DNA of 32,629 nucleotides from Candidatus Avanaerovorax faecigallinarum (lineage in GTDB: Bacteria > Bacillota > Clostridia > Peptostreptococcales > Anaerovoracaceae), in contig DXHZ01000042.1 of NCBI GenBank assembly GCA_019113145.1, positions 1 through 32,629 of the forward strand. The letters are read 5' to 3'. A program made the translations under genes and the position numbers. Shown here piece after piece: positions 1 to 18,764 of this stretch (within the stretch, counting starts at the first letter, position 1; every line of letters starts with the position of its first letter). The notes beneath the pieces are model-generated. The model did not search any database. It saw nothing but the letters and a program-made list of their open reading frames with translations, and had not been told where the DNA came from.

Positions 1-603
1 AAACAGCACGATTACCGCAGTCAGCGGAGTTATGCCTGCTATGATGAAGCATATGGTGAAGAATATGTAGAATGCGTAAAGCAGTCTCCAGCTCTTGCCG
101 TATCCGAAAAGTACCTTGTAGTTCTTGACTACGGGTATTTTTTTACTGTCTTCCAGGAAGTGATGAAGCCTGTCTATCTGCACCGGATCTATGAAGCCTC
201 CCCTGTAGAAAGGAAGCGTGAAGAAAGGCTTTTCGGTGATGGGAAAAGACACTTCTTTATCGTAGAACTTCACTCCGAACGTATCAAAGACTGCAAGCTT
301 TACCTTTGAAAAATCCAGGGTCTTCCGGCGGAAGAGCAATCTGTTGTAGAAAGTCAGCTCGTCCGGGGTGTATATGCTGTAACAGAACCTGTGAGCAAAG
401 AAGAGACAGCCGAGGACCGCAAATATTGCAGAATATACGACGGTCGAGCGGAAGAAAAGTATGCTGTCCGCGTATTCGGGAATATCGAAGACCTTTATCT
501 CCACTATGACGAGATAGTAGAGGAGAACGTAAAGAAATATGATTCCCAGCAGAAGCTGTTTAAAGGCGCTGGAATAGTTGTATTCTATCTTTCGCATTTT
601 CAT
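1..603 (-). CDS. Unknown membrane protein, 3' end cut by window edge (cassette copy 1)
   Basis: The frame is open from an ATG at 603 to the window edge, 201 codons without a stop. A GAGGTG ribosome site at 613-618 supports a start at 603 or 609. Two hydrophobic segments lie near residues 15-35 and 50-72, then a polar domain of about 90 residues, then a third hydrophobic segment near 178-201. It is a clear paralog of the protein at 5945-6583: both have the same topology, a PF(Y/F)RGG motif in the polar domain, and an almost identical end (TVIVLF/AVIVLF). By comparison with that copy only about eight residues are missing. The polar part could be a PH-like fold as in YdbS/YcxB-type proteins, but I cannot establish the family. 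It diverges from the SpmA-like operon, so it may sense or regulate it. Confidence 0.8.
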   Translation of the reverse strand, partial: MKMRKIEYNYSSAFKQLLLGIIFLYVLLYYLVIVEIKVFDIPEYADSILFFRSTVVYSAIFAVLGCLFFAHRFCYSIYTPDELTFYNRLLFRRKTLDFSKVKLAVFDTFGVKFYDKEVSFPITEKPFFTLPFYRGGFIDPVQIDRLHHFLEDSKKIPVVKNYKVLFGYGKSWRLLYAFYIFFTICFIIAGITPLTAVIVLF

Positions 604-648
604 GTGCATGATCACCTCATATAAAATATAAAAACTACTGTAGAATAT

Positions 649-739: not shown

Positions 740-774
740 TCCTGAATTTAGGAATATGGTTCCTGAAAATAGGA
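740..774. promoter_or_regulatory. Two tandem palindromes, candidate activator binding sites
   Basis: Two 14-base sites, TCCTGAATTTAGGA (740-753) and TCCTGAAAATAGGA (761-774), share TCCTGAA..TAGGA. Each is an imperfect palindrome with TCCT/AGGA arms. Their centres are 21 bases apart, two helical turns, so they face the same side of the DNA. They lie roughly 65-100 bases upstream of the -24 element, the usual place for an enhancer of a sigma-54 activator. Binding by the activator encoded at 20037-22145 is inference. Confidence 0.55.
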
Positions 775-836: not shown

Positions 837-853
837 TTGGCACAGTAATTGCA
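837..853 (+). promoter_or_regulatory. Sigma-54 (-24/-12) promoter of cassette copy 1
   Basis: TTGGCACAGTAATTGCA matches the sigma-54 consensus TTGGCACRNNNNTTGCW at every defined position. The GG (839-840) and GC (851-852) are exactly 12 bases apart. Transcription would start near 864, about 100 bases before the SpmA-like gene. Confidence 0.88.
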
Positions 854-961: not shown

Positions 962-1675
962 ATGATGAACTATCTCTTTGCGGCATTCATGCTCATAGGC
1001 GTGGTTGCCGGCGGCATCACCGGTACTATGGATGCCGTGCTTCAGAACATTTTTGACTTCGCCCAGTCCGGCGTTAACATCGCTCTCGGACTCATCGGTA
1101 CGATGGCGTTCTTCTGCGGACTGATGAAGCTCATGGAGGAATCCGGTCTCTGCGACAAGCTGGGCAAGGCAATCTACCCTGTTATGAGACTTCTCTTCCC
1201 TGACGTTCCGGCCGATCATCCTGCAAACTCCATAATGGCTCTTTACTTTGCGGCCAACATCCTGGGAATAGGTAACGCTGCAACACCTTTCGGACTGAAG
1301 ACCATGCAGGAACTCCAGACTCTCAACAAGACCAAGAACATCGCTACCAACGCACAGTGCATGCTGATGGCTATCTCCACAACATCCATCACGCTGCTCC
1401 CATCCACTGTAATCAGCATCCGTGCTTCCATTCAGGCTGATGGCGCAGCTGAAATCGTTGTTCCGGTTATCATTGCTACCACTATCTCTACAATAACGGG
1501 TGTAACCTTCTCCCTCCTGTTCCAGAGAACCAAGAGATGGAAGCTTGAGAACGTTATCGAAAGAGAAATCGCGGCAGGCACCCTGGAAGTAAACGAGGAC
1601 TACATAGGCGATGATCCTATAGTTCTTCCTGAAGGCTATAAGCTGAAGACCGATTTCGGAAGCAAAGAAGAGTAA
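962..1675 (+). CDS. SpmA-like membrane protein (Gate/nucleoside-recognition family), copy 1
   Basis: This 237-residue, strongly hydrophobic protein carries the SpmA signature NILGIGNAATPFGLKTMQEL near residues 99-118, followed by a TLNKTKN stretch. I place the start at the MMNYLF methionine (962) because AAGGAGG at 944-950 precedes it and copy 2 begins the same way (MMNYIW); an upstream ATG at 917 would lie before the ribosome site. In Bacillus, SpmA and SpmB act with the murein carboxypeptidase DacB in spore core dehydration; their chemistry is not settled. Here the gene is first in a sigma-54-driven operon with an SpmB-like gene 17 bases on and an S66 peptidase. A sporulation role is therefore doubtful. 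A two-subunit channel or transporter for peptides or amino acids is possible but inferred. Confidence 0.85.
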   Translation: MMNYLFAAFMLIGVVAGGITGTMDAVLQNIFDFAQSGVNIALGLIGTMAFFCGLMKLMEESGLCDKLGKAIYPVMRLLFPDVPADHPANSIMALYFAANILGIGNAATPFGLKTMQELQTLNKTKNIATNAQCMLMAISTTSITLLPSTVISIRASIQADGAAEIVVPVIIATTISTITGVTFSLLFQRTKRWKLENVIEREIAAGTLEVNEDYIGDDPIVLPEGYKLKTDFGSKEE

Positions 1676-1692
1676 AGGAGGGCTAAGATAAA

Positions 1693-2241
1693 ATGTCAGT
1701 AGCAGACGTATTTAACGTAATATCCACATGGGCCATACCTGTGGTAATATTCATTGTAGTAGGTTACGCACTGGTAAAAAGAGTACCTATCTACTCCGTA
1801 TTTACTACGGGCGCAAAAGACGGTTTTTCCACCGCAGTAATGATTATCCCTTATCTGGTTGCAATGCTCTGCGCTATCGGTATGCTGAGAGCATCCGGCG
1901 CAATGGACGCATTCTGTAACCTGATAGACCCTATAACAAGCCTTATCGGATGTCCTGGAGAGGTTCTTCCTTTCGCGGTAATGAGATCCTTCTCCGGCGG
2001 CGGAGCTGAAGGTATGATGACCGAGCTGGTTACCACTTACGGAACTCAGAGCCAGATCGGACGTATCGCATCCGTTGCAATGGGCTCCACCGAGACCACA
2101 TTCTACATCCTTGCCGTATACTTCGGATCTGTAGGCGTTACAAACTCCAGACATTCCGTAGCGGCAGGCCTTCTGGGAGACCTTACTTCCCTGATTGCAT
2201 CCTGCGTAATCGTAAATCTCCTCTGGGGATATGGATTCTAG
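1693..2241 (+). CDS. SpmB-like membrane protein (Gate family), copy 1
   Basis: This 182-residue hydrophobic protein has SpmB-type motifs: PGEVLPFAVMRSFSGGGAEG in the middle and TTFYILAVYFGSVG with TNSRH near the end. A GGAGGG ribosome site sits about 10 bases ahead of the ATG. SpmA and SpmB are homologous Gate-domain halves that occur as pairs, and the pair here is intact. The S66 peptidase starts 29 bases after the stop. Compared with copy 2 (7622-8158), it contains a 38-base stretch of identical DNA (2047-2084 against 7970-8007), pointing to duplication with little divergence or later gene conversion in this part. Confidence 0.85.
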   Translation: MSVADVFNVISTWAIPVVIFIVVGYALVKRVPIYSVFTTGAKDGFSTAVMIIPYLVAMLCAIGMLRASGAMDAFCNLIDPITSLIGCPGEVLPFAVMRSFSGGGAEGMMTELVTTYGTQSQIGRIASVAMGSTETTFYILAVYFGSVGVTNSRHSVAAGLLGDLTSLIASCVIVNLLWGYGF

Positions 2242-2270
2242 GATTTTGACTTAAAAGAAGGTGAACAGAA

Positions 2271-3191
2271 ATGAGATATCCTGAGAAATTAAATAAAGGC
2301 GATACTATCGGTATCATATGCCCGAGTTCTCCTGTAGACGAGGGCAAGACCCCTGCTCTCATAAAGAAGATGGAGGAGCTTGGATATAAGGTAAAGGCTG
2401 CTGATAATCTCGAGGAAAATTACGGCGGCTTCATGGCGGGAACCGGCAAGACCAGAGGCGAATGGGTTAACAAGATGTTCGCCGACCCTGAGGTAAAGGC
2501 TGTGTTCTGCGTAAGAGGCGGCGACGGCAGCAGCAGAATCATGGAATACCTTGATTACGACGTAATCAGAAACAACCCTAAGATTTTCGTAGGTTACAGC
2601 GATGTTACCAACATCCATCTGGGAATAAACCAGAACTGCGATCTGGTAACATTCCACGGACCTATGGTTTCATCCAACATCCTTAACGATTTTGACGATG
2701 AGACGGCCGAATCACTCTTTGCGGCAATAAACGCCGAAGGAGACTTAGAATTCAAGAACCCTAAAGGCTTTGACATAAAGGTTCTTAAGGAAGGAAAGGC
2801 CGAGGGAATCCTCACAGGTGGAAACCTTTCCCTCCTTTCAGCAAGCGTGGGAACACCTTACGATCTTGAGACGGAAGGCAGAATCCTCTTCGTCGAAGAA
2901 GTGTGCGAGCCGCTGTCAAAGATTGAAAAGTGGATGTATCACCTCAGAAACTCCGGCAAGCTGGCAAAGTGCAGCGGAATTCTGCTGGGACAGTTTACAG
3001 AGGTTGAAAACGAAAAGATGGCGGAGTATGATGTATACGAAGATATGAAGGATATCCTGGAGGGTATCGACATACCTGTAATGTATAATGTCCAGTCAGG
3101 CCACAGTAAACCTATGATGACTCTTCCTTTAGGCGCAGTATGCACTATGGATACCGCTACCGGAAAAATCACCTTCAAGGTTGAAAGATAG
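2271..3191 (+). CDS. S66 family peptidase (LD-carboxypeptidase / MccF-like), copy 1
   Basis: A 306-residue cytoplasmic serine peptidase with the complete S66 triad visible: Ser110 in VGYSD, a glutamate at 209-210 in LFVEE, and His278 in QSGHSKP. The N-terminal GIICPSSP and the VRGGDGSSR and LTGGNLSLL stretches are also typical. Members either cut the LD bond of murein tetrapeptides (LdcA, in cell-wall recycling) or hydrolyse acyl-sulfamoyl or isopeptide links (MccF). No signal peptide is present, so it acts on imported peptides. It is the last gene of a three-gene operon, followed by a terminator 14 bases after the stop. Coupling to SpmAB-like membrane proteins suggests the pair and the peptidase share a substrate. 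Sequence alone does not separate the LdcA and MccF activities. Confidence 0.88.
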   Translation: MRYPEKLNKGDTIGIICPSSPVDEGKTPALIKKMEELGYKVKAADNLEENYGGFMAGTGKTRGEWVNKMFADPEVKAVFCVRGGDGSSRIMEYLDYDVIRNNPKIFVGYSDVTNIHLGINQNCDLVTFHGPMVSSNILNDFDDETAESLFAAINAEGDLEFKNPKGFDIKVLKEGKAEGILTGGNLSLLSASVGTPYDLETEGRILFVEEVCEPLSKIEKWMYHLRNSGKLAKCSGILLGQFTEVENEKMAEYDVYEDMKDILEGIDIPVMYNVQSGHSKPMMTLPLGAVCTMDTATGKITFKVER

Positions 3192-3204
3192 CTTTATTCA
3201 TGTA

Positions 3205-3233
3205 GGGGCAGTATGCGTACTGCCCCGTATTTT
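3205..3233 (+). terminator. Rho-independent terminator after S66 gene copy 1
   Basis: The 9-bp perfect stem GGGGCAGTA/TACTGCCCC (3205-3213, 3218-3226) with a TGCG tetraloop is followed by GTATTTT. It closes the first cassette operon. Confidence 0.85.
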
Positions 3234-3248
3234 AAACAGGAGACAAGT

Positions 3249-3650
3249 ATGGCAGCGGGATATGCGAGAAAAGAGAATGCCGTATACGACATATACGGGA
3301 GATTTGCCGACAGAGATATAGGCGAGTGCCCCTTCTGCAAAAATCCGGAGCCGAAGTGGCTTTACCGGGAGGAATGGAAGCTTCTCGGCAATAACAGCGT
3401 GTATTTCAAATGTCCGTGCTGCGAATCGGAGCTGATGGTTCCCAAGGACGATATTACGGGTCTGTCTTTTTCAAAAGCCAGCTCCAGCGGTAAGAAAAAG
3501 GCCAATGCGGGAAAAGTGATGAACGAGCCGTATGTAACGGTTATCAAGATTGGATTTGAATATAAGAACGCGAAGAATATGCTTCTCGTAGGCGAGGAAA
3601 TGACTCTCGCCCAGCTGAAAGAGAGAGCGGAAAAAGCGCGCAGTATATAG
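3249..3650 (+). CDS. Small zinc-ribbon protein of unknown function
   Basis: A 133-residue protein with CPFC near residue 26 and CPCC near residue 56, a four-cysteine arrangement typical of a structural zinc ribbon. The rest is basic and polar with no membrane segment. I start at 3249 (MAAGYARK) because AGGAG lies seven bases upstream; an earlier in-frame ATG at 3213 falls inside the terminator hairpin. The gene is 25 bases before dapF and probably shares its transcript. I do not recognise the family and cannot assign a function; a DNA-, RNA- or protein-binding role would be typical of such ribbons. Confidence 0.75.
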   Translation: MAAGYARKENAVYDIYGRFADRDIGECPFCKNPEPKWLYREEWKLLGNNSVYFKCPCCESELMVPKDDITGLSFSKASSSGKKKANAGKVMNEPYVTVIKIGFEYKNAKNMLLVGEEMTLAQLKERAEKARSI

Positions 3651-3675
3651 ATTACAGAACATAATAAAGAAGTAT

Positions 3676-4515
3676 ATGAAATTCTGGAAAATGAACGGAG
3701 CCGGAAACGACTTCATTATAATTAACAACATAATAGAGAAAATTCCGGTTGAAAGGCTTCCGGACGTGGCGAGAAAGCTTTGTCACAGAAGATTTTCCAT
3801 AGGAGCCGACGGCCTCATGGCGGTGGAAAAGCCGGAGGGAGACGGAGACTTCAGGATGCTCTTCTTCAATTCGGACGGTTCCATGGGGGAGATGTGCGGA
3901 AACGGCGCCCGCTGCATATGCAGGTACGGGTACGAGAACAGCCTTGCCGGAGAGACTCAGAAGGTGGAGACCACGGCGGGTATGGTTACCGGCAGCAGAC
4001 TGTCGGAGAGGGAATACAGGATAAGGCTTAACGACCCGGCGGTTTTGCGCCTGGACGAGGAGGTTTTCGCAGGCGGAACCGGGTACGTATGCTCCTATGT
4101 GGAGCTGGGCGATCCCGGAATACCTCACTGCGTCATAGAATGGAAAAACCTTAGGAATTGCCCAAAGGAAAAGCTCTACGACACGGCAAGAGCTCTCAGA
4201 AGTTACGGCGGCTATCCGAATGGAGCCAATGTGAACTTTTACGATATGGAATCGGACGGAACAATCTTTGAGAGAACTTTCGAGCGGGGCGTGGAGGATT
4301 TCACCTGCGCCTGCGGAACGGGTACGGGAGCAACGGCAGTCGTTCTCGCTCTTAAGGGCTTCGTACCGGGAAGAAATGTTGCCGTGGATATGGAGGGCGG
4401 ACGGCTTTTCATAGACGTCACTGCAGAAGGCGGAAAGGTACGGGATATTTTTCTGACGGGACCTACTAATATTGTCGCAAAAGGTGAAGTGACCGACGAG
4501 GACTTCATCCTGTAA
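3676..4515 (+). CDS. dapF: Diaminopimelate epimerase
   Basis: The enzyme interconverts LL- and meso-diaminopimelate, the last step before lysine and the source of the cross-linking residue in murein. At 279 residues it is the usual length. Both catalytic cysteines are present: Cys74 in EMCGNGARC and Cys213 in the CACGTGTGA motif. The N-terminal MNGAGNDF is also diagnostic. The ribosome site is weak (AAAGAAG), so translation may depend on the upstream zinc-ribbon gene. lysA follows 28 bases later. The dapF-lysA pair sits between the two SpmAB/S66 cassettes, so murein precursor synthesis and possible murein peptide breakdown are neighbours. Confidence 0.95.
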   Translation: MKFWKMNGAGNDFIIINNIIEKIPVERLPDVARKLCHRRFSIGADGLMAVEKPEGDGDFRMLFFNSDGSMGEMCGNGARCICRYGYENSLAGETQKVETTAGMVTGSRLSEREYRIRLNDPAVLRLDEEVFAGGTGYVCSYVELGDPGIPHCVIEWKNLRNCPKEKLYDTARALRSYGGYPNGANVNFYDMESDGTIFERTFERGVEDFTCACGTGTGATAVVLALKGFVPGRNVAVDMEGGRLFIDVTAEGGKVRDIFLTGPTNIVAKGEVTDEDFIL

Positions 4516-4543
4516 ATATAACTGATTTGAAAGGAAGAAAAAA

Positions 4544-5842
4544 ATGATCTGTGAAAACATTTCAGTATCATCTGAAGGACATCTGCTGTTTGCGGGACAG
4601 GATACGGTGGAGCTTGCGAAGAAATACGGAACGCCTCTCTATCTCATGGACGAGGACAGAATCCGCGCCAACTGCAGGCTTTACAAGAAAGCGATGAAGG
4701 AAAGCTTCGGTGATGATGCTGCTCCGCTTTACGCTTCAAAGGCCAACTGCTTCAAGAGAATCTACGAGATAATGAAGGAAGAGGACATGGGAATAGACGT
4801 AGTGTCCTCGGGAGAGATATATACTGCGGTAAAGGCCGGATACGATCTGTCAAAGGCGTTTTTCCATTCAAACAATAAGACCGACGAGGACATAGCCTAC
4901 GCCATGGATAACGGCATCGGATATTTTGTCGCAGATAACATCGAAGAAGTGAAGGCCGTAGACAAGGAAGCCGAAAAGAGAGGCTTCAGACAGAAGATTA
5001 TTTTAAGGTTAACTCCGGGAATCGACCCTCACACCTACGAGGCCATTTCCACCGGACAGGTCGACTCCAAGTTCGGAAGCGCCATAGAGACCGGTCAGGC
5101 GGAGGAGATAACCGTTGCTGCCATGGGATATCCTAACGTGGATCTGAGAGGATTCCACTGCCACGTGGGCTCTCAGGTGTTCGCAGAGGACGTGTTCGAG
5201 AGAGCCGCTGTCGTAATGCTGGAGTTCGTAGCCGAAATGAAGGAAAAGCACGGATTTGTTACGAAAGTTCTCGACCTCGGCGGAGGTTACGGCGTTCGTT
5301 ACGTGGAATCGGATCCGCACCTTGACATTGCCGAAAAGATTTCCCAGGTGGCAAAGGTCGTAAAGGACACCTGCGCAAAGCTGGGACTGGATATGCCTGA
5401 AATCCACATGGAACCGGGACGCTCCATAGTGGCAGATGCCGGTATGGTGCTTTACACCGTAGGAACGGTAAAGAAGATAGCGGGATACAAGAACTACGTG
5501 TCCATCGACGGAGGAATGACTGACAGCCCGAGATATGCACTCTACAAGGCCGCCTACACCTGCCTCACCGCGAACAAGATGAACGAAAAGGCTGACTTTA
5601 AGGCGTCTCTGGTAGGAAGATGCTGTGAATCGGGAGATATAATCCAGGAGGACGTAATGTTCCCTGAATCCATCACCAGATACGATACGGTGGCCGTATG
5701 TACCGCCGGGGCATACCACTACTCCATGGCGTCCAACTATAACCGTCTGCCAAAGCCTGCAACGGTTATGCTCAGGGGCGGCGAAAGCTACATCGCCGTT
5801 AAGAGAGAGACTTTCGAGGACGTGGCGAGAAACGACGTATAA
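4544..5842 (+). CDS. lysA: Diaminopimelate decarboxylase
   Basis: A PLP enzyme that converts meso-diaminopimelate to L-lysine and CO2. The 432-residue protein has the fold III decarboxylase signs: the PLP lysine (K66) in YASKANC, HCHVGSQV, the glycine-rich LGGGYGVRY, EPGRSIVADAG, the substrate motif GRCCESGD, and AGAYHYSMASNYN near the C-terminus. The ribosome site AAAGGAAG lies just upstream of the ATG at 4544. It is the last gene of the zinc-ribbon-dapF-lysA group and is followed by a bidirectional terminator. Confidence 0.95.
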   Translation: MICENISVSSEGHLLFAGQDTVELAKKYGTPLYLMDEDRIRANCRLYKKAMKESFGDDAAPLYASKANCFKRIYEIMKEEDMGIDVVSSGEIYTAVKAGYDLSKAFFHSNNKTDEDIAYAMDNGIGYFVADNIEEVKAVDKEAEKRGFRQKIILRLTPGIDPHTYEAISTGQVDSKFGSAIETGQAEEITVAAMGYPNVDLRGFHCHVGSQVFAEDVFERAAVVMLEFVAEMKEKHGFVTKVLDLGGGYGVRYVESDPHLDIAEKISQVAKVVKDTCAKLGLDMPEIHMEPGRSIVADAGMVLYTVGTVKKIAGYKNYVSIDGGMTDSPRYALYKAAYTCLTANKMNEKADFKASLVGRCCESGDIIQEDVMFPESITRYDTVAVCTAGAYHYSMASNYNRLPKPATVMLRGGESYIAVKRETFEDVARNDV

Positions 5843-5880
5843 GACGTATAGTCTGAAAGAAAAAGCTACATCGAAAAATA

Positions 5881-5927
5881 AGCACCGCTTTATCCGGATA
5901 TGATTTCGCCGGAAAGCGGTGCTTTTT
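5881..5927. terminator. Bidirectional terminator between lysA and the convergent membrane gene
   Basis: Perfect 11-bp arms AGCACCGCTTT (5881-5891) and AAAGCGGTGCT (5913-5923) enclose a smaller CCGG/CCGG stem. A T run follows on the plus strand and an A-rich run precedes it, so it can end transcription in both directions. Confidence 0.9.
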
Positions 5928-5944
5928 CATACTGCTCAATGCTG

Positions 5945-6583
5945 CTATATGAGGTTATTGCTGCTTGCGGTAAACAGAACGATTACCGTATAAAAATAAT
6001 TTGCAGAGGCGAGGAGGGTGCATATAGCCAGAAGTGCGTAGATTATGGAAACCCATTTCCATTTTTTCGTGTATCCCGGGAGCGTTTTGAAAGTTTTGTT
6101 TACCCGGATGTTTTCATTGGCTATGAGCATCCTGAAGAACCTGTCCGCGTCGAAAGCGTTTACAATACCGCCCCTGAAAAAAGGAATTGTAAGTGCATCG
6201 GGCTCGTTTTCGTCGGAACTCCTCTTAAGATGAATGCCTCTCCAGTCGAGAAGCGCATATCTTATCTCGTCTACCGCTACTGTGCGGGATTTCCGCAGCA
6301 GGTGGTTGGTATACGTGATGGATTTGTCGTCGTAAGTGGTGATGAAGCATTTATAGCAGAAGAACAGAATAATAACGGCAAGGAATATCAGGGCGTAGTA
6401 CACGAGAGTGGGTATGATGTACACCGTGTATCCCTCGATGCCGTAGAACTTTATCTGCAGGGTAATGATGAATCTGAGAAGAAACAGAATCATTACCGTT
6501 ATAAAGAACATAACCTTGGCCTTATTGGTGGATACGTATCTAATTCTGTCTTCAGTATTTATTCTTTCGGTATTATCGGTCAT
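5945..6583 (-). CDS. Unknown membrane protein (cassette copy 2)
   Basis: A 212-residue protein starting at 6583, fixed by an ideal AGGAGG at about 6595-6600; the frame stays open upstream but has no better start. Hydrophobic segments lie near residues 24-44, 53-77 and 178-205. The polar region between the second and third contains IPFFRGGIV, which matches PFYRGGF in the paralog at 1-603. Both genes lie divergent to the same kind of SpmA/SpmB/S66 operon, so the association is conserved across the duplication. I do not recognise the family; a PH-like domain between membrane segments is a guess. A role in sensing or controlling the neighbouring operon, or as an accessory subunit, is inference. 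Confidence 0.8.
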   Translation of the reverse strand: MTDNTERINTEDRIRYVSTNKAKVMFFITVMILFLLRFIITLQIKFYGIEGYTVYIIPTLVYYALIFLAVIILFFCYKCFITTYDDKSITYTNHLLRKSRTVAVDEIRYALLDWRGIHLKRSSDENEPDALTIPFFRGGIVNAFDADRFFRMLIANENIRVNKTFKTLPGYTKKWKWVSIIYALLAICTLLASANYFYTVIVLFTASSNNLI

Positions 6584-6602
6584 AAGTCTTAAATCCTCCT
6601 CA

Positions 6603-6615
6603 GTGTATGATACAC
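6603..6615. promoter_or_regulatory. Perfect 13-base palindrome, operator candidate
   Basis: GTGTAT-G-ATACAC lies in the leader of the minus-strand membrane gene, only a few bases upstream of its ribosome site. A repressor bound here could block that gene. No matching site was seen in cassette copy 1. Confidence 0.35.
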
Positions 6616-6799
6616 AATTACCCGTAGGTTGGCAACATAACAGTATAATATGAAATTTCCGCAAACACCCGATAAAACCCCATTTAATCATATTATCGTG
6701 CAATTTGAAGAAGCGACATGCAGGGCATGATCGGGATGAAGGACTGTGTGACACGGCGGGAGGCATGGAAAAAACAATATTATTGAAAGAAGCTGAGTA

Positions 6800-6816
6800 G
6801 TGGCACGTGAATTGCA
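6800..6816 (+). promoter_or_regulatory. Sigma-54 (-24/-12) promoter of cassette copy 2
   Basis: GTGGCACGTGAATTGCA matches the sigma-54 consensus except for the first T. The GG (6802-6803) and GC (6814-6815) are exactly 12 bases apart. Transcription would start near 6827, about 75 bases before the SpmA-like gene. Confidence 0.88.
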
Positions 6817-6900
6817 ATAAGAATAGTCTGTTTTTATAATTACTGGCGTGTATTTCCTCGAAGCGGGGAAAAATTTTATCGAACTGGAGGTAAAGTAATT

Positions 6901-7608
6901 ATGATGAACTACATTTGGGTGGCCATGGTGGTCATCGCCGTAGTTGCCGGAATCATCACCGGCAATGTGGAAGCGGTTCAGGACAGTCTGTTCACTTTTG
7001 CAGATTCGGCTGTAGAAATCGCTCTCGGACTTATCGGTACAATGGCATTCTTCTGCGGACTTATGAAGGTTATGGAAGAAGCCGGACTTTGTGAGAAGAT
7101 GAGTAAGGCATTGGCGCCTCTGCTGAGATGGATGTTCCCGGGAATACCGGAAGGTCATCCTGCAAACTCTTCTATTTCGCTCTACATCGCATCCAGCATT
7201 CTGGGTCTCGGAAATGCGTGCACTCCGCTTGGAATCAGAGCCATGCAGGACCTGCAAACTCTCAACAAGACAAAGAATGTTGCAACGGATGCCCAGACAA
7301 TGGTAATGGCTATTTCCACGGGATCTATTACTATTCTGCCTACTACAGCCATCGCAATGAGATCGGCCGTTCAGACTGAAGGCGCTGCAGAAATCGTCGG
7401 CCCTACCATTCTGACTACTCTCTGCGCTGCTGCAGTATGTGTTATCATGACCAAGCTTCTTAACAAGATTAAGATATTCACCTACGATTACAATATCGAA
7501 AAGGAAAGAGCCGCCGGAACTCTTATCATAAACGAGGAATACATCGGCGACGATCCGCTGGAGCCGGTATCGGCATCAGACGATACTGCAGGTGCAATTG
7601 AAGGTTAA
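6901..7608 (+). CDS. SpmA-like membrane protein (Gate family), copy 2
   Basis: A 235-residue paralog of the protein at 962-1675, with the same MMNY start, the shared stretch ALGLIGTMAFFCGLMK, a SILGLGNACTPLGIRAMQDL signature, and the closing INEEYIGDDP. The tails differ: this copy ends in an acidic VSASDDTAGAIEG segment, whereas copy 1 ends in a more basic one. GGAGG at 6886-6890 sets the start. It heads a sigma-54 operon with the SpmB-like gene 13 bases downstream. Retention of two complete pairs suggests different substrates or conditions rather than mere dosage, but this is inference. Confidence 0.85.
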   Translation: MMNYIWVAMVVIAVVAGIITGNVEAVQDSLFTFADSAVEIALGLIGTMAFFCGLMKVMEEAGLCEKMSKALAPLLRWMFPGIPEGHPANSSISLYIASSILGLGNACTPLGIRAMQDLQTLNKTKNVATDAQTMVMAISTGSITILPTTAIAMRSAVQTEGAAEIVGPTILTTLCAAAVCVIMTKLLNKIKIFTYDYNIEKERAAGTLIINEEYIGDDPLEPVSASDDTAGAIEG

Positions 7609-7621
7609 GGAGGTATAGAAA

Positions 7622-8158
7622 ATGACAGCAGTATTAAATGCAATATCCGTATACGCTATACCGGTAATAGTAATGCTCATAGCGTTTTATGCTATAATAA
7701 AGAGAGTTCCGGTTTATTCCTCCTTCACCGAAGGTGCGAAGGAAGGTTTTGAAACATCCGTAATGATCATACCTTATCTGGTTGCAATGCTCTGCGCCAT
7801 AGGTATGCTCAGAGCTTCGGGAGCCATGGACTGGATCGTGGCAATCCTTGATCCGATTACCAGTCTGGTAGGCCTTCCGGGAGAAGTTCTTCCGATGGGA
7901 ATCATGCGTTCCTTCTCCGGAGGCGGCGCTCAGGGACTCTGTGCGGATCTTCTGGAAACGTACGGAACACAGAGCCAGATCGGACGTATCGCATCCGTTG
8001 CAATGGGATCCACAGAGACTACGTTCTACGTACTTGCGGTATACTTTGGAGCCGTAGGAATCACCAACTCAAGACAGTCCCTGCTGGCAGGACTTTCAGG
8101 AGACCTTTTCTCCCTTATCATGTCGGCAATCATCGTAAACCTCATGTGGGGATATTAA
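7622..8158 (+). CDS. SpmB-like membrane protein (Gate family), copy 2
   Basis: A 178-residue hydrophobic protein, paralog of 1693-2241. It keeps PGEVLPMGIMRSFSGGGAQG and TTFYVLAVYFGAVG with TNSRQ. The ribosome site AAGGAGG lies about 8 bases upstream of the ATG. It pairs with the SpmA-like gene just before it, and the S66 gene follows after a short gap. The stretch encoding SQIGRIASVAMGSTETTFY is almost identical in DNA to copy 1. Confidence 0.85.
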   Translation: MTAVLNAISVYAIPVIVMLIAFYAIIKRVPVYSSFTEGAKEGFETSVMIIPYLVAMLCAIGMLRASGAMDWIVAILDPITSLVGLPGEVLPMGIMRSFSGGGAQGLCADLLETYGTQSQIGRIASVAMGSTETTFYVLAVYFGAVGITNSRQSLLAGLSGDLFSLIMSAIIVNLMWGY

Positions 8159-8176
8159 TACCGGAGGTGAATGTTC

Positions 8177-9094
8177 ATGGTATATCCTGACAAAATAAAG
8201 GAAGGCGCTACTATAGGTCTCGTAAGCACCAGCTCGCCAATCACAGCGGAAAGAGAAGAGCAGTGCGTTAAAGCCATCGAGGAGATGGGCTTCAAAGTAA
8301 AGAAAGCGCCTAACATTACCGCCTCAAAGGGCGGATACATGGCGGGAGAGGAATCTCTCCGCGGCGAGGTCCTGAATTCAATGTTTGCGGACAAAGACGT
8401 CGACGCCATATTCTGCATAAGAGGCGGAGACGGAGCCAACCGCATTATCGATTATCTGGATCTTGACGTGATCCGTGACAACAGAAAGCCTTTTGTAGGC
8501 TACAGCGACGTATCCAGCCTGCACCTTCTGTTTAATCAGAAATGCGACATGGTTACGTTCCACGGTCCGATGGTTTCTTCCAACATCGTTGACAATTTCA
8601 CACCTGAAGTGAGAGAGGCATTCTTCGCAGCCATAAACGCTGACGCTGAATACATCTATAAGGCGCCTGCCGGACATGAGCTTAAGGTGGCGAGAGAAGG
8701 AAAAGCCGAAGGCGTAATGACAGGCGGAAACCTTACGGTCATCTGTGCATCTCTGGGAACGCCTTACGATATGGATACGGACGGTAAGATTCTGTTCATC
8801 GAAGAAGTAGGCGAGCATGTAGGCAATCTGGACAGACATGTATATCAGCTCAGAAACGCCGGAAAGTTCGACAACATTAAAGGCATCGTTCTCGGCCAGT
8901 TCACGGACTGCAGAGAAGATGTGCCGGGCTACGACATGACCCGCATAATTCTCGATGCCATAGGTGATAAAGATATCCCGGTAATATATAACATTCAGTC
9001 AGGACATGACAATCCGATGATAAATATTCCTCTCGGAGCGATGACCTGCATAGACACGTCAAAGAAAGAACTCAGGTTCATGACGGGAAGATAA
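8177..9094 (+). CDS. S66 family peptidase (LD-carboxypeptidase / MccF-like), copy 2
   Basis: A 305-residue paralog of the protein at 2271-3191. The triad is intact: Ser110 in VGYSD, Glu209-210 in LFIEE and His277 in QSGHDNP. I choose the ATG at 8177 (MVYPDKIKEG), which aligns with MRYPEKLNKG of copy 1 and has GGAGG nine bases ahead; the ATG at 8171 is too close to that site. The protein has no signal peptide, so it is cytoplasmic. The polar residues just after the catalytic glutamate differ from copy 1 (VGEHVGNLDR against VCEPLSKIEK), so specificity may differ. Confidence 0.88.
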   Translation: MVYPDKIKEGATIGLVSTSSPITAEREEQCVKAIEEMGFKVKKAPNITASKGGYMAGEESLRGEVLNSMFADKDVDAIFCIRGGDGANRIIDYLDLDVIRDNRKPFVGYSDVSSLHLLFNQKCDMVTFHGPMVSSNIVDNFTPEVREAFFAAINADAEYIYKAPAGHELKVAREGKAEGVMTGGNLTVICASLGTPYDMDTDGKILFIEEVGEHVGNLDRHVYQLRNAGKFDNIKGIVLGQFTDCREDVPGYDMTRIILDAIGDKDIPVIYNIQSGHDNPMINIPLGAMTCIDTSKKELRFMTGR

Positions 9095-9356: not shown

Positions 9357-10943
9357 ATGTATACAGCCCTGTACAGAGCGAAAAGACCCGAAGTGTTTTC
9401 TGAGATACTGGGTCAGGAGCACATCGTTAAGGTGCTTCGCAACCAGATTAAGACTGATACGGTAAGTCACGCTTATCTTTTCTGCGGCACCAGAGGAACA
9501 GGAAAGACGTCCACGGCGAGGATTCTCGCGAAAGCGGTAAACTGTCTGTCCGATGGCGACAGACCGTGCGGAATCTGCGAAAACTGCACGGCTATAAAGA
9601 ACGGAACGTTTCTGGACGTCATAGAAATAGACGCCGCTTCCAACAACGGCGTGGATAATATCAGAGAACTTCGCGAAAGCGTGAAGTATCCTCCTGCGGC
9701 GGGGAGGAAAAAAGTATACATAATAGATGAGGTTCACATGCTTTCTACGGGAGCGTCCAACGCTCTGCTGAAAACTCTGGAGGAGCCGCCTGAGAACGTC
9801 ATGTTCATACTGGCTACTACGGATCCTCAGAAGCTTCCTCAGACCATCCTTTCAAGGTGTATGAGGCTGGATTTCAGGAGAGTTCCGGAAAGGGAGCTGG
9901 CAGGCCATATGAAAGCCATATGCGATGAGCGGGGAGTGAAGATAACTGACAGCGCCCTTCACCTTTTGGCCGCCAATGCAGACGGCTCGGTAAGAGACGG
10001 CCTCAGCATTCTCGATCAGTGCCTGTCCGGAGGCGACAGAGAGATAGACAGGGATCTTATTCTCGACTTTCTCGGCACAGTGTCGGAGGAATACTTCATC
10101 GAGCTTACGGAGAAAGTGCTCCTGAAGAATGTAGGCGGCGCGCTGATGATACTCGATGAAGCTCTGAGGGAAGGCAAGGATGCAAAGCAGATTATGAAGG
10201 ACTGGATGAGTCACTACCGGTGCCTTCTCATAACGAAATACGTAAAAAACCCGGAAGACGTGCTGAACATGTCTGCGGATAACATAAAGACGTTGAGGGA
10301 ACAGAGCGGCAGAATCTCCCTCGATGAGATTAACGAAGGAATACTGACTCTTGCGAAAACCATAAATGACGCCAGATATTCATCGCAGCCGAGGGTGCTT
10401 CTGGAACTGGCTGCGGCGACTCTTGCGGACGGAGTTCGGGAGGCGGAACGTGAAACGCCAAAATCTGCCGAAATCAGGACGGAGCGGATTCACTCCGCTG
10501 AAACGAAGAAGACGGTTCCGGCGAAACCACCTGAAGCCGCGCCTGTCAAGACGGCTGAAGAAAAGCCGAAAGTCTCAGAAGCTCCGGCGGAGAAAAGCAG
10601 GGATGAAGAGGAATATAATCTGGATGAAATCTGGCACGGCATCTTCCGAAAGGCGGAGAAGGTAAGACCCAGCTTCAATCTGATAAAGACCGGTTCGACT
10701 CTTGCGGAAATCGGAAAGGATTCCTTTAAGATTCTGGTCAGGACAGAGTTTATAAAGAACATAATCGAAAAGGACAGCCGCCTCATAGCGGAGCTCATGG
10801 AAGAGGAGATCGGGAGAAAGCTGAGGCCTGTTTGCAGACTTGAGGGAGCGGAGCCGGATGAGGATGAGGCTGAGGAAAAAGCCCGGGAGATTGCGGAAGA
10901 AGTGAGAGAAAAACTTCACATAGATAATGTAACCATAGAATAG
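9357..10943 (+). CDS. dnaX: DNA polymerase III subunit gamma/tau
   Basis: The clamp-loader ATPase of the replisome. The 528-residue protein begins with the typical [20 protein letters not shown], then Walker [10 protein letters not shown] (44-52), zinc-binding cysteines C63, C71, C74 and C77, [17 protein letters not shown], and the DEVHML Walker B region with [12 protein letters not shown] charged linker around residues 365-420 rich in Lys, Glu, Pro and Ala leads to a C-terminal tau-like domain. AGGAG about ten bases upstream supports the start. ybaB follows after 20 bases. I saw no obvious slippery A-run with hairpin, so a separate gamma product by frameshifting is not evident. Confidence 0.96.
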
Positions 10944-10963
10944 AGAAACGGAGGACAGATAAT

Positions 10964-11326
10964 ATGGGAAGAGGAATGAAAGCCGGAAAGAGACCTAAAC
11001 CTCAGGGAATGGGCGGCGGAAATATGCAGAAGCAGCTCCAGCAGGTTCAGGCCATGCAACGCCAGATGGAGCAGATTCAGGCGGAGCTTGAAGAGAGAGA
11101 GTTTACTGCAACATCGGGCGGCGGCGCAGTTTCCGTAACCGCTAACGGAAAGAAGGAACTTAAGAATCTGGTTATAGATAAGGACGTTGTGGATCCGGAT
11201 GACGTGGAAATGCTTCAGGACCTTATTCTGGCGGCGGTAAACGAGGTTATGAGACAGGTGGATGAGGTTTCCGGTCAGGAAATGGGCAGGCTTACGGGCG
11301 GTCTTAACATTCCCGGACTCATGTAG
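10964..11326 (+). CDS. YbaB/EbfC family nucleoid-associated protein
   Basis: A 120-residue protein with a Gly/Lys-rich start, a Gln- and Met-rich helix ([20 protein letters not shown]) and the family core [20 protein letters not shown]. The family forms small dimers that bind DNA. It lies in its standard place between dnaX and recR, with a GGAGG site before the ATG and 14 bases to recR. Confidence 0.93.
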
Positions 11327-11340
11327 CGGGGCGTAATAAT

Positions 11341-11943
11341 ATGAGGAATTATCCCCAGCCCCTTGCACGGCTTATAAACGAGCTTTCCCACCTTCCGGGA
11401 ATAGGCGGCAAAACGGCCCAGCGCCTTGCCTTTTACATAATGTCCATGGAGGATAAGGAAGCGAAAAATCTGGCGGAGTCCATCGTGGACGCGAAGGAAA
11501 AGATGAAATACTGCTCGGTCTGCGGCAACCTGACCGATACCGACCCGTGCGCCATATGCTCCGACAGAGAGAGAAGACAGGACGTCATATGTGTGGTGGA
11601 AAGCCCTAAGGATGTTATGGCAATGGAGAGGATAAGGGAGTTCGACGGACTTTACCACGTCCTTCACGGAGCCATTTCTCCTATGGAAGGCGTTGGCCCC
11701 GAGGACATAAACCTTAAGAGTCTCATAGTCCGGCTTCAGGAGAATCCGGGCGTTAAAGAGGTAATTCTGGCCACTAATCCCAACATCGAGGGAGAGGCTA
11801 CGGCCATGTACATAGCAAGGCTCTTAAAGCCTTCAGGCATCAAAGTCAGCAGAATCGCCAACGGCATACCTGTGGGCGGAGACCTGGAATATGCCGACGA
11901 AGTTACACTTCTCAAGGCCATGGAAGGAAGAAGAGAACTGTAA
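11341..11943 (+). CDS. recR: Recombination mediator protein RecR
   Basis: RecR acts with RecF/RecO in loading RecA at gaps. The 200-residue protein has the helix-hairpin-helix [14 protein letters not shown] (18-31), a four-cysteine zinc finger (C58, C61, C70, C73) and a Toprim domain beginning [14 protein letters not shown], followed by [15 protein letters not shown]. Length and order fit the family exactly. The ribosome site is poor, suggesting translation coupled to ybaB. A bidirectional terminator follows. Confidence 0.96.
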
Positions 11944-11971
11944 TACGGGTTATAGGATAAAAGTGTTTATA

Positions 11972-12015
11972 AAAACCGCTGTATATATTGAAATTTCAAT
12001 AGGTACAGCGGTTTT
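11972..12015. terminator. Bidirectional terminator between recR and the YitT gene
   Basis: Perfect 12-bp arms AAAACCGCTGTA (11972-11983) and TACAGCGGTTTT (12004-12015), with an inner palindrome ATTGAAATTTCAAT. A and T runs at the two ends allow it to act on both strands, ending convergent transcripts. Confidence 0.88.
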
Positions 12016-12031
12016 AAGCTGATTTTAAGAC

Positions 12032-12910
12032 TTATTCCATAGGGCGCTTATAGAAGGTGCCGTCTACCTGCTCCGTGCGGACTACATTGACAAAAGCCCG
12101 GGGGTCCACTGATTTAATGGCTCTCATGACCTTTCCCAGTTCGTCGCCTGAAATTACGGAATATACCATTGAACGCTCGTGGCGTTCGTACATGCCGGTG
12201 CCCTTAAAGAGTGTGGCGTCGTGTCGGGTGATTTCCTTTATTCGGGCGTATACAGCATCAGGAAGCTCCGTGATGACGAGGAGGGTGTGTTTGGTGTATC
12301 TGCGGTACAGGTTATGAATCACCTGGGTGGATGAGAACTGGAAGATAATGGAGTACAGGGCTTTGTCGAAGCCGAACAGCAGTCCTGCAGCCACCAGAAC
12401 ACAGATGTTTCCGGCGAGGATGAAATTCCATGAATCAAGCCCTCTGCGCTCGGAAAGGTATACGGACACAAAGTCCATTCCTCCCGATGAGGCGCCTACG
12501 AAGAGGCAGAGGGTGATGGAAAAACCGTTCACCATTCCGCCGAATATACCCACTAAAAGCTCGTCGTAGGTTATCGCAATTTCCGGTATCAGGTCGGTAA
12601 GTATGCTGGTGAGCACTATCTGATACAGGGAAAAAATCGTGAAGTTCCGTCCCACGTACCTTACCCCTACGAATATTGGAATAAGGTTTAAAGGCACGTA
12701 GAGCAGTGTGTATGGTATCTGCGTACCGAAGTATTCGTCACCCACCCGCTGAAGAAGGAGGGTGAGGCCGTTTATTCCTCCGGGGAAAAGACCTCCGGTA
12801 TGGACGAAACTCTGTATATTGAATGCCATGACTATGGCGCTTAAGGATACCACTATAATACGCTTGACAAATTTTGTCCCCCTGTGGTCATCGTTTTTTA
12901 TAATTTCCAT
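12032..12910 (-). CDS. YitT family membrane protein (DUF161 plus DUF2179)
   Basis: A 292-residue protein with a short basic start, about five membrane segments within residues 15-205, and a soluble C-terminal domain of about 75 residues typical of DUF2179. Family motifs include the N-terminal HTGGLFPGGINGL and the middle GASSGGMDFVSVYLS. The function of the family is not established; the soluble domain is thought to bind a small ligand. GGAG is eight bases before the ATG. The start is three bases after the stop of the YbaK gene, so the two form an operon, but I see no obvious functional link. Confidence 0.88.
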   Translation of the reverse strand: MEIIKNDDHRGTKFVKRIIVVSLSAIVMAFNIQSFVHTGGLFPGGINGLTLLLQRVGDEYFGTQIPYTLLYVPLNLIPIFVGVRYVGRNFTIFSLYQIVLTSILTDLIPEIAITYDELLVGIFGGMVNGFSITLCLFVGASSGGMDFVSVYLSERRGLDSWNFILAGNICVLVAAGLLFGFDKALYSIIFQFSSTQVIHNLYRRYTKHTLLVITELPDAVYARIKEITRHDATLFKGTGMYERHERSMVYSVISGDELGKVMRAIKSVDPRAFVNVVRTEQVDGTFYKRPME

Positions 12911-13650: not shown

Positions 13651-15051
13651 ATGGAAAACAGTAAGCAGAAGGGAAAGTTTCAGAGTAATTTCGGCTTTCT
13701 CATGGCTGCGATAGGTTCGGCCGTAGGCCTGGGAAACCTTTGGGGATTTCCGTACAAAATGGGTAACGGAGGCGGATTCGCCTTCCTGTTTCTCTACCTG
13801 ATTCTGGCCGTATGTATCGGCTACAGCTGTATGCTTGCGGAGTTTGCAATCGGCCGTAAATCGGGAAAGGGAGCGATAGGAGCCTACGAGCGCATAGGAC
13901 GCAAGTTTATGTTCAACGGATGGATCGCCACTATGGCGCCTTTCTTCCTCATGATGTTCTATCTCTGCCTGGGCGGCTACTGCATCAAGTATCTCATCGC
14001 CAACTTCGGAGACATTTTCGGAGCATCCTGGGGAGTGGGAGACGTTGCCAGCGGCGACTTCTTCAACACATTCGTTGCGGACCCCGTACAGTCTGTGGGA
14101 TTCACTCTTATCTTTGCGGTGCTGACTATCGTCATCGTAATGGGCGGAGTTGCCAACGGTCTTGAGAGATTCTCCGTAATCGCAATGCCTGCGCTCTTTG
14201 TCATGCTACTTATAACGGTTATAAGAAGCGTTACCCTTCCGGGAGCGGCAGAGGGTCTTGCATTTATGTTCAAGCCTAACTTCGAGGTATTCAAAGGATG
14301 GGGCTGGCTCAAGGTTCTGGCGTCTGCCGGAGGACAGCTTTTCTTCTCGCTGTCCCTCGCATCCAGTGCGCTCATAGCCTACAGCTCGTACCTTGACAAA
14401 AAAGAAAATCTTGAGAAGAACGCACTTATCGTACCTGCGGCAGACACTACTGTCGCCATTCTCTGCGGTCTTGCTACACTTCCTGCCGTATTTGCGGCCG
14501 GACTGGAGCCGACTCAGGGACCGGGAATGCTCTTCGTAACCCTTCAGACCGTGTTCCAGAGCATGAGCGGAGCAGGTCCGATATTCGGAACTATATTCTA
14601 CCTGCTGGTATTCCTGGCGGCTCTCACTTCATCCATATCCATGCTTGAAGGCTCCGTGTCATCATTTATGGACAGAAGGCTGGAGAAGGGCAAGAGTCAG
14701 GGAAGAACATTCCTCTGCCTCACTATAGGAGGAATATCCACCGCAGGCGCGGTACTGGTAGCTCTTGACGCTCTCGGAGCGGCAGGACTTCCGCATCTCT
14801 TCGGATTCAGCACATGGCTTGACACATTCGACCTCTTCAGCGAAGGTATCCTGATGCCTGGCGGATGTCTCATCATGACCATCATCCTCGGCTGGATCAG
14901 ACCGGGATACATCGACGACGAGATCAAGCTGAGCGGAAGCTACAGAAGCAAGCCGTTCGTGGAAATATGTCTCAAGTTCCTCGCACCTGTATTCCTGGCG
15001 TTTATCGTTGTAGTACAGATGGACGGATTCTTTAAACTGGGACTGTTCTAA
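13651..15051 (+). CDS. Na+-dependent amino-acid transporter, NSS (SNF) family, copy 1
   Basis: A 466-residue integral membrane protein of the LeuT-like neurotransmitter:sodium symporter family. The first membrane helix carries MAAIGSAVGLGNLWGFPYKM, the unwound substrate and sodium site. Repeated hydrophobic segments fit the 11-helix form common in bacteria. It would import amino acids with Na+. The AGGAGG site just before the ATG fixes the start. A close paralog follows after only 19 bases in the same transcript. Neither copy's substrate can be told from sequence; tyrosine, tryptophan and branched-chain transporters exist in this group. Confidence 0.92.
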   Translation: MENSKQKGKFQSNFGFLMAAIGSAVGLGNLWGFPYKMGNGGGFAFLFLYLILAVCIGYSCMLAEFAIGRKSGKGAIGAYERIGRKFMFNGWIATMAPFFLMMFYLCLGGYCIKYLIANFGDIFGASWGVGDVASGDFFNTFVADPVQSVGFTLIFAVLTIVIVMGGVANGLERFSVIAMPALFVMLLITVIRSVTLPGAAEGLAFMFKPNFEVFKGWGWLKVLASAGGQLFFSLSLASSALIAYSSYLDKKENLEKNALIVPAADTTVAILCGLATLPAVFAAGLEPTQGPGMLFVTLQTVFQSMSGAGPIFGTIFYLLVFLAALTSSISMLEGSVSSFMDRRLEKGKSQGRTFLCLTIGGISTAGAVLVALDALGAAGLPHLFGFSTWLDTFDLFSEGILMPGGCLIMTIILGWIRPGYIDDEIKLSGSYRSKPFVEICLKFLAPVFLAFIVVVQMDGFFKLGLF

Positions 15052-15070
15052 GACAGGAAGGATAATATAA

Positions 15071-16616: not shown

Positions 16617-17564
16617 ATGAAGCTTATAGACATGCATTGCGACTCCATGGGAGAGGTGTTCCTTCATCCGGAGCAGAATATTTTAAACAAAGGCGGCCAT
16701 CTCGATCTTGAGATGATTGAAAAGGTCGGCGGCACTGTGCAGTTTTTTGCGCTGTTCATGTACAGGGACTGCATAGAGAAGTACGGTGCGTACGACCTGT
16801 TTCACAGAATGTACGACACTTATGTAAAGCAGATGGAGCTGAACAGGGAACATGTTCTGCCGGTGCTTAAAGCTGAAGATATAGAGAAAAACGAAAAGGC
16901 CGGAAAGATATCTTCTCTCCTGACAGTTGAGGACGGAGTATTTCTGGACGGTCACATCGAAAGAGTAGACGAGGCGTACGAAAAGGGCGTAAGACTCATA
17001 ACTCTCCTCTGGAATTTTGAGAACTCGCTGGGCTATCCGTCAAGCGACGACCCTGAGGAACACATGAGGGGACTGAAGCCTTTTGGCATCGAAGCCGTGG
17101 AGAGGATGAACGACCTTGGAATCATCGTCGATCTTTCTCATTCCTCTGAAGGAGTGTTCTACGACGTTGCGAAGTACAGCAAAAAACCTTTCATAGCCAG
17201 CCATTCCTGCGCAAGAGCTCTCTGCGGACACAGAAGGAATCTGACTGACGGTCAGCTTAAGACTCTTGGCGAAAAGGGCGGTGTAGCGGGAATAAACTTC
17301 TACGGCTGCTTCCTGGAGGATGACTGTGATTATCCTACGGTAGATCTCATCATGAAGCACATGAGATATATGATAGATAAGGCAGGCATCGAAAGCGTAG
17401 GCTTCGGCTCCGATTTTGACGGTATTGAATCCGCTGGTGAACTGGAGAATTATCTGGGATTCAAAAAGATAATCGCTGCAATGGAAAAAGAGTACACAGA
17501 CGATGAAATCGACAAAATCTGCTACAGTAACGCAATGAGAGTTATAAAAGAAGTTATAGGTTAA
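16617..17564 (+). CDS. M19 family (membrane/renal-type) dipeptidase
   Basis: A 315-residue dizinc dipeptidase. Metal ligands are visible: H7 and D9 in DMHCD, a glutamate in LLTVEDG, and histidines in VDLSHSS and ASHSCARAL. HRRNLTD and GFGSDFDGI are family signatures. M19 enzymes cut dipeptides and are unusual in accepting a D-amino acid at the C-terminal position. AGGAGG seven bases ahead sets the start at 16617. There is no signal peptide, so it works on imported dipeptides. The gene has its own promoter and a shared terminator with the convergent racemase gene. Confidence 0.92.
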   Translation: MKLIDMHCDSMGEVFLHPEQNILNKGGHLDLEMIEKVGGTVQFFALFMYRDCIEKYGAYDLFHRMYDTYVKQMELNREHVLPVLKAEDIEKNEKAGKISSLLTVEDGVFLDGHIERVDEAYEKGVRLITLLWNFENSLGYPSSDDPEEHMRGLKPFGIEAVERMNDLGIIVDLSHSSEGVFYDVAKYSKKPFIASHSCARALCGHRRNLTDGQLKTLGEKGGVAGINFYGCFLEDDCDYPTVDLIMKHMRYMIDKAGIESVGFGSDFDGIESAGELENYLGFKKIIAAMEKEYTDDEIDKICYSNAMRVIKEVIG

Positions 17565-18754: not shown

Positions 18755-18764
18755 GTTTCCTCCT

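Follow-up and report, generated by a model that had tools for sequence, protein, structure and literature searches.

SpmA-SpmB-like Gate protein pairs linked to S66 peptidases as candidate transporters in a putative sigma-54 regulon for murein-peptide catabolism in Candidatus Avanaerovorax faecigallinarum

In the current study, we analyzed a stretch of 32,629 nucleotides from Candidatus Avanaerovorax faecigallinarum (contig DXHZ01000042.1 of assembly GCA_019113145.1, forward strand; the whole stretch is referred to here as the window), in which two membrane proteins resembling the spore maturation proteins SpmA and SpmB (together SpmAB) are encoded directly before an S66-family peptidase, and this twice. 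Based on gene content and its conservation, we consider it reasonably likely that the two SpmA-SpmB-S66 units are part of a sigma-54 regulon that takes up and ferments murein peptides. For the role of a dedicated transporter in such a regulon for the catabolism of murein peptides and diaminopimelate (DAP), the best candidate is the SpmAB-like pair.

Organization of the SpmA-SpmB-S66 units

The spmA-spmB-S66 trio is present at 962–3191 and again at 6901–9094, and the first copy continues into three further genes:

962–1675, plus strand: SpmA-like Gate membrane protein, copy 1 (PF07670, 48 bits)
1693–2241, plus strand: SpmB-like Gate membrane protein, copy 1 (PF07670, 53 bits)
2271–3191, plus strand: S66-family peptidase, copy 1, candidate LD-carboxypeptidase (PF02016 and PF17676)
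3213–3650, plus strand: orf145, conserved small protein with Cys pairs (no Pfam match)
3676–4515, plus strand: dapF, diaminopimelate epimerase (TIGR00652, 211 bits, cut-off 115)
4544–5842, plus strand: lysA, diaminopimelate decarboxylase (TIGR01048, 409 bits, cut-off 298)
6901–7608, plus strand: SpmA-like protein, copy 2 (PF07670, 35 bits)
7622–8158, plus strand: SpmB-like protein, copy 2 (PF07670, 55 bits)
8171–9094, plus strand: S66-family peptidase, copy 2 (PF02016 and PF17676)

The original prediction had located both units correctly, and Pfam matches confirm their identity: all four membrane proteins match the Gate domain PF07670 with 35–55 bits (cut-off 29.6 bits), and both enzymes match Peptidase_S66 and S66C with 112–130 bits. 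Judged from their sequences, the two trios are diverged paralogues, with identities between copies of 56% for SpmA, 71% for SpmB and 51% for S66. The ATG at 962 is preceded by a ribosome-binding site (AAGGAGG), and spmA-spmB-S66-orf145-dapF-lysA form one six-gene run with gaps of 17–29 bp (21, 25 and 28 bp along S66-orf145-dapF-lysA), which is kept with its dapF-lysA part in three sister genomes. A second full-length lysA copy was not found in the genome.

Conservation of the gene neighborhood

The survey drew 80 loci from GTDB genomes and was extended by 40 from Clostridia, all annotated with the window proteins. Neighbors were counted within about 7 kb of the pair in 39 loci of the window's type (here called catabolic-type) and 78 comparison loci; since the loci share ancestry, these counts and their p-values are descriptive, and Fisher values overstate independence. 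An S66 gene adjoins the SpmAB pair in 38 of the 39 catabolic-type loci, spanning at least four families, and the sole exception (L050) ends inside SpmB at a contig edge, while S66 is near the pair in 2 of the 78 other loci, there upstream. The linkage of SpmAB and S66 in non-spore-formers, on which the original prediction had hinged, thus proved strongly conserved, and it is present in genomes lacking detectable Spo0A and SpoIVA. Overall, the catabolic-type locus occurs in genomes both with and without SpoIVA.

Besides S66, the catabolic-type loci contain LysA-type DAP decarboxylases (23/39; two such proteins were tested and both pass the lysA cut-off), M19 dipeptidases (20/39), M20 peptidases (19/39), VanX-like M15 D-Ala-D-Ala dipeptidases (18/39), alanine racemases (16/39), DapF (11/39) and M55 peptidases (5/39), together with sigma-54 activators (20/39), relatives of orf145 (15/39) and a divergent small membrane protein resembling orf615 of the window (34/39), each of these being found in 0 of the 78 comparison loci. 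The names are backed by Pfam and NCBIfam matches on representatives, with the VanX-like and epimerase-like proteins below the equivalog cut-offs. In locus L137, an L-Ala-D/L-Glu-epimerase-like gene directly follows S66 and is itself followed by a gene for an oligopeptide-binding protein; this epimerase relative is present in 1 of the 39 loci, and its score of 265 bits is below the equivalog cut-off of 500. By these profile-based names, the neighbor set is one of enzymes of murein-peptide catabolism. As a separate observation, a protein of approximately 450–470 amino acids without a Pfam match directly follows SpmB in Ignavibacteria and Bacteroidota (L055, 7525–8934; L060, 5871–7229), and may be the partner of another SpmAB branch.

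Sigma-54 promoters and putative activators

The following regulatory features were detected in the window:

740–774, plus strand: two tandem dyads, TCCTGAATTTAGGA and TCCTGAAAATAGGA, 21 bp apart, both perfect TCC-N8-GGA
838–853, plus strand: sigma-54 promoter 1, TGGCACAGTAATTGCA, perfect -24/-12 box, 108 bp before spmA copy 1
6801–6816, plus strand: sigma-54 promoter 2, TGGCACGTGAATTGCA, perfect box, 84 bp before spmA copy 2
20037–22199, minus strand: sigma-54-dependent activator (PF00158, 232 bits)
22321–22336, plus strand: sigma-54 promoter 3, TGGCATATTTTTTGCT, fitting TGGCAY-N5-TTGCW, with 1 mismatch to the stricter TGGCACN5TTGCW

The boxes before the two spmA copies are the only perfect TGGCACN5TTGCW matches in the window, in agreement with the earlier proposal that both trios are under sigma-54. 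Any single site may be a chance match, because the genome holds 10 perfect sites and the reversed control pattern still yields 3. Despite this chance level for one site, the position of the box is conserved among relatives, with a box 5' of spmA in 33 of 38 catabolic-type loci, 0 of 33 sporulation-type loci and 0 of 42 distant loci (0/75 for the latter two together). In loci L139 and L140, the box precedes the first gene of the operon, which is a lysA homologue.

The tandem dyads lie 98 bp 5' of the -24 box of promoter 1 and are a candidate binding site for a sigma-54 activator. An equivalent pair with 0–2 mismatches is present 5' of spmA in approximately 20 of 33 scannable relatives, a statistic that carries selection, as the dyads of promoter 1 were spotted by eye (the inverted-repeat search missed them) and tested afterwards. 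The dyad pair is absent from promoter 2 and from the promoters of the copy-2 type, and a gene related to the activator at 20037–22199 adjoins the copy-2-type SpmAB in five loci (L048, L049, L051, L052 and L054). Because the dyads occur only with the copy-1 type and this other type of activator lies near the copy-2 type, the two copies are probably controlled by different activators, the protein at 20037–22199 being the putative activator in the window.

Relation to the sporulation SpmAB proteins

In the phylogenetic tree, the S66-linked pairs fall into two lineages, both well supported and distinct from the sporulation SpmAB. The larger one is a clade of 38 members (support 1.0) outside the sporulation SpmAB clade, and the catabolic pattern recurs in a second SpmAB lineage, represented by L137, L139 and L140 from three other families. 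In one genome (G211), a catabolic pair (L140) exists alongside a sporulation-type pair (L141). L138, considered as a sporulation-type pair, was dropped from that group, as the tree places it in the second catabolic-type clade, where it stands without S66. The window proteins are 37–42% (SpmA) and about 40–52% (SpmB) identical to the sporulation-type proteins. Within f27, a clostridial family, S66 is encoded 5' of sporulation-type spmAB, intact in L158 (1713–2714) and apparently broken or frameshifted in L160 (4339–5191).

The original prediction had used DacB, encoded beside spmAB in Bacillus, as a bridge between the window pairs and sporulation. A motif scan found no S11-like (DacB-like) open reading frame beside the 33 sporulation-type clostridial loci, whose recurrent neighbors look like abrB, rsmI, metS and tatD, and the bridge was abandoned as a general argument. 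Likewise, because the S66-linked pairs are separate lineages, recasting the function of the sporulation SpmAB, and with it of the whole family as had been suggested, is an extrapolation. The known phenotypes of spmAB lie in spore core dehydration. SpmA and SpmB are listed for every reliable genome of a spore-former, and as of 2012 neither an activity nor a structure was on record for them (Galperin et al., PMC3533761). Our literature search found no functional paper on SpmA with transport, on DAP fermentation or on the function of yjiGH.

Host genome and lysine metabolism

The genome is 1.82 Mb in size and 99.3% complete, and its closest named relatives are Emergencia, Hornefia and [Eubacterium] infirmum. 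Neither Spo0A_C nor SpoIVA was matched in it, with B. subtilis as positive control, and both Spo0A and SpoIVA were also undetected in the sister genomes G391–G393. The C-terminal domain of DapB, present in 20 of the 29 genomes searched, was not detected in this genome (G000), in G391–G393, in Hornefia or in [E.] infirmum. Without DapB, dapF and lysA cannot complete the de novo synthesis of lysine, and the simplest use of dapF-lysA in a genome without dapB is that of external DAP, as supplied by murein peptides. The MurE motif is ENNR instead of the canonical meso-DAP motif DNPR, with the Arg retained, and the wall diamino acid of G000 and G391–G393 may be unusual. The motif was given up as a test for the wall diamino acid, since EEDPR is found in both DapB-containing and DapB-lacking relatives, and ENNR here.

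Perfect sigma-54 sites also precede kdd (3,5-diaminohexanoate dehydrogenase) and kal (3-aminobutyryl-CoA ammonia lyase), on a contig that further contains kamA/D/E-like genes; the kdd, kal and kam names come from reading translations and not from profile matches. On this basis, the organism probably ferments lysine and employs sigma-54 to control this pathway. Between kdd and kal, a 689-amino-acid protein is encoded (L100, contig C63 of G000, 10020–12089, minus strand), whose N-terminal stretch resembles Kdd. It is probably a sigma-54 activator, with a possible enzyme-derived sensor domain for a regulator of lysine fermentation.

Other genes of the window

1–615, minus strand: divergent small membrane protein next to copy 1, truncated at the contig start
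5945–6583, minus strand: divergent small membrane protein beside copy 2 (no Pfam match)
16620–17564, plus strand: M19 dipeptidase (PF01244, 273 bits)
17642–18775, minus strand: alanine racemase (PF01168/PF00842)
18765–19982, minus strand: M20 amidohydrolase/carboxypeptidase-like protein (TIGR01891, 366 bits)
22375–23172, plus strand: M55 D-aminopeptidase of the DppA family (PF04951, 284 bits)
23192–24235, plus strand: S58 aminopeptidase of the DmpA family (PF03576, 396 bits)
24368–25072, plus strand: aspartate/glutamate-type racemase (PF01177; TIGR00035, 205 bits, cut-off 93)

The protein at 5945–6583 clusters with the family of the protein at 1–615, and this family is a possible third component or regulator. 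The M19, alanine racemase and M20 genes probably share a regulon with the trios. Two tandem genes for amino acid transporters of the sodium:neurotransmitter symporter (SNF) type are located at 13651–16477, 5' of the M19 gene. Promoter 3 precedes the M55 D-aminopeptidase gene, beside the activator gene. The region 22321–25518 comprises this sigma-54 box followed by the M55, S58, aspartate/glutamate-type racemase and D-aminoacyl-tRNA deacylase genes, and is likely a D-amino-acid peptide operon adjoining its own activator gene.

Proposed function

SpmA and SpmB very probably act together, because each has a Gate domain and the two are naturally fused in 38 loci. One fusion (L089) was modeled as a proxy for the SpmA-SpmB complex of the window, which yielded a confident model with a predicted local distance difference test (pLDDT) score of 86.7 and a predicted template modeling (pTM) score of 0.81; SpmB copy 1 of the window was modeled with AlphaFold2 at a pLDDT of 83.6. 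The best matches of the fusion model in PDB (Foldseek) are TRAP SiaQM, AbgT YdaH, DASS VcINDY, CNTnw and a plant dicarboxylate carrier, and those of SpmB copy 1 are CNTnw and vcCNT, while a sequence search of SpmB against PDB returned no match. The fold matches weakly support, and do not prove, a transporter fold in these predicted structures.

We propose that SpmA and SpmB would each form half of one elevator-type secondary transporter with a Gate/CNT-like fold, whose cargo would be a small molecule from murein, either a stem peptide, DAP or a D-amino-acid dipeptide. The cytoplasmic S66 enzyme would then cut D-Ala off DAP-containing peptides, the M15, M19, M20 and M55 peptidases and alanine racemase would dispose of D-Ala and dipeptides, DapF would adjust the stereochemistry of DAP, and LysA would decarboxylate meso-DAP to lysine, which could enter the sigma-54-controlled Kam/Kdd/Kal lysine fermentation. 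From the gene content, we infer transport with its direction and substrate, the specificity of S66 and the flux from DAP to lysine fermentation. The most telling evidence, which the original prediction had overlooked, is the combination of dapF-lysA in the run, the absence of DapB and a sigma-54-controlled lysine fermentation. The earlier suggestion of a peptide or amino acid from murein as the cargo of SpmAB holds in part: the conserved S66 pairing and the murein-peptide and DAP neighbors speak for it, but transport itself is deduced and the resemblance to elevator-type transporters is weak.

Several observations weigh against this reading. The Foldseek matches of the fusion reach probabilities of up to 1.0, but none has E ≤ 0.001 and the TM scores are about 0.4, so that the A-B structure prediction once suggested as a check gave a confident model with a weak resemblance; for SpmB copy 1, the matches are also weak (probability 0.72–0.97, E > 0.4), the TM scores over both models being about 0.4–0.5. 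The S66 proteins, earlier described as LD-carboxypeptidase-like, have both S66 domains and Ser110, Glu209 and His278 (numbering of copy 1), a putative S66 triad invariant across 43 cluster S66 proteins. However, they score 149 and 138 bits against the LdcA equivalog NF008424 (cut-off 378), and although their solved relatives include both MccF-like proteins and muramoyltetrapeptide carboxypeptidase, the nearest structures by profile score are MccF-like rather than LdcA. A gamma-D-Glu-DAP endopeptidase (YkfC-type) was not found in the loci. Three loci (L047, L136 and L137) carry parts of an oligopeptide ABC transporter, and peptides may enter that way while SpmAB may have another role. Murein-type neighbors are missing around the pair or fusion of Bacteroidota, Proteobacteria and Ignavibacteria, and the shared ancestry of the surveyed loci lowers the weight of the counts.

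Alternative explanations

Salvage instead of energy catabolism is an unlikely explanation, in which a DAP/lysine auxotroph without DapB scavenges murein peptides for lysine and possibly for building its own wall, and lysine fermentation is separate. The retention of dapF and lysA with DapB undetected fits this, as does the non-canonical MurE motif with its kept Arg, but the same SpmAB-S66 locus is found in several relatives that retain DapB, so that the locus is not tied to auxotrophy, and the sigma-54 control that it shares with kdd and kal points to fermentation.

It is improbable that SpmAB works as an exchanger, bringing DAP or a small peptide in for lysine or another decarboxylation product out and forming with cytoplasmic LysA a proton-motive system of decarboxylation and antiport like AdiC/AdiA, with peptide import by the oligopeptide ABC transporter. 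The frequent LysA-type decarboxylases, the lysA homologue that opens the L139/L140 operon and the nearby ABC oligopeptide genes in L047, L136 and L137 would agree with such exchange; the fermentation genes, on the other hand, would consume the lysine, and in about 40% of the loci (some of them cut by contig ends) no decarboxylase is near the pair. There is a similarly small chance that the S66 enzyme is a hydrolase of an MccF or isopeptide type and that the substrate which the trio takes up and splits is an isopeptide or a conjugate not derived from murein, as may be the case for the E. coli yjiHG-iadA genes. The MccF-like nearest structures and the yjiH-yjiG-iadA arrangement point in this direction, but the window S66 proteins are without the insertion of approximately 21 residues of the MccF-like chain 3sr3, and murein is the substrate suggested by the nearby DAP decarboxylase, D-Ala-D-Ala dipeptidase and alanine racemase. 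Least probable of all, SpmAB would be a non-transporting accessory complex for wall turnover or remodeling, with S66 recycling only the cell's own wall, which would suit the dehydration phenotypes and the lack of a listed activity or structure but conflicts with the elevator-transporter-like predicted fold, with the Gate relative SpoVV being a transporter, with the catabolic type of sigma-54 control and with the absence of wall-synthesis genes among the recurrent neighbors.

Uptake and fermentation of murein peptides remains our preferred reading. The conserved and tightly regulated co-occurrence of an SpmAB-like pair with enzymes for murein peptides, in bacteria that lack sporulation genes, points to a concrete class of substrates that can be tested. 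If correct, this reading would describe how gut anaerobes could live on the walls of other bacteria, fermenting DAP by way of lysine to butyrate, and it would explain the retention of dapF-lysA in genomes without dapB. A broader view is tentative and on balance doubtful: SpmA-SpmB could be a split, two-chain transporter family with DAP or a DAP-containing murein peptide as ancestral cargo, of which a clostridial catabolic branch, controlled by sigma-54, would feed wall DAP into the fermentation of lysine to butyrate, and the sporulation branch would move a related metabolite of the wall or DAP pathway in spore maturation.

Comparison with known systems

The CNT, TRAP, AbgT and DASS elevator transporters provide the best PDB fold matches of both the fusion and the window SpmB, and differ in that no significant sequence match exists, the fold E-values exceed 0.001 and the two halves are separate chains here. 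E. coli yjiH-yjiG, which lie in one gene run with the isoaspartyl dipeptidase gene iadA, share the combination of a Gate pair and a dipeptidase. They are very remote (YjiG scores 75 bits to the SpmB profile and YjiH is below threshold), the enzyme is an isoaspartyl dipeptidase and not S66, and no sigma-54 or DAP context was seen. The spore maturation proteins SpmA and SpmB have the same paired Gate architecture, whereas the window pairs belong to separate lineages, with a sigma-54 promoter, S66 and DAP neighbors and no detectable Spo0A or SpoIVA.

In the dpp operon of B. subtilis, DppA is an M55 D-aminopeptidase, as in the window. Murein catabolism in this species involves the S66 enzyme YkfA, the epimerase YkfB and the endopeptidase YkfC, and the peptides enter through a permease that awaited identification (PMC2954226, PMC3305447). 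The ykfABCD operon and the adjacent dpp thus resemble the present loci in the S66 enzyme, in the L-Ala-D/L-Glu epimerase (with a relative in L137) and in the link to oligopeptide uptake (PMC2954226, PMC3305447). Here, in contrast, a SpmAB-like Gate pair accompanies S66, together with a DAP decarboxylase, a VanX-like dipeptidase and sigma-54 control, and no YkfC-type endopeptidase was found. Finally, SpoVV (YlbJ) is a Gate protein and the dipicolinic acid (DPA) transporter of B. subtilis (PMC5629000). It differs from SpmAB in being a single chain with eight predicted transmembrane segments, specific to sporulation and to the mother cell, but it shares the Gate family, is similar to CNTs and has a DAP-branch product as its cargo (PMC5629000).

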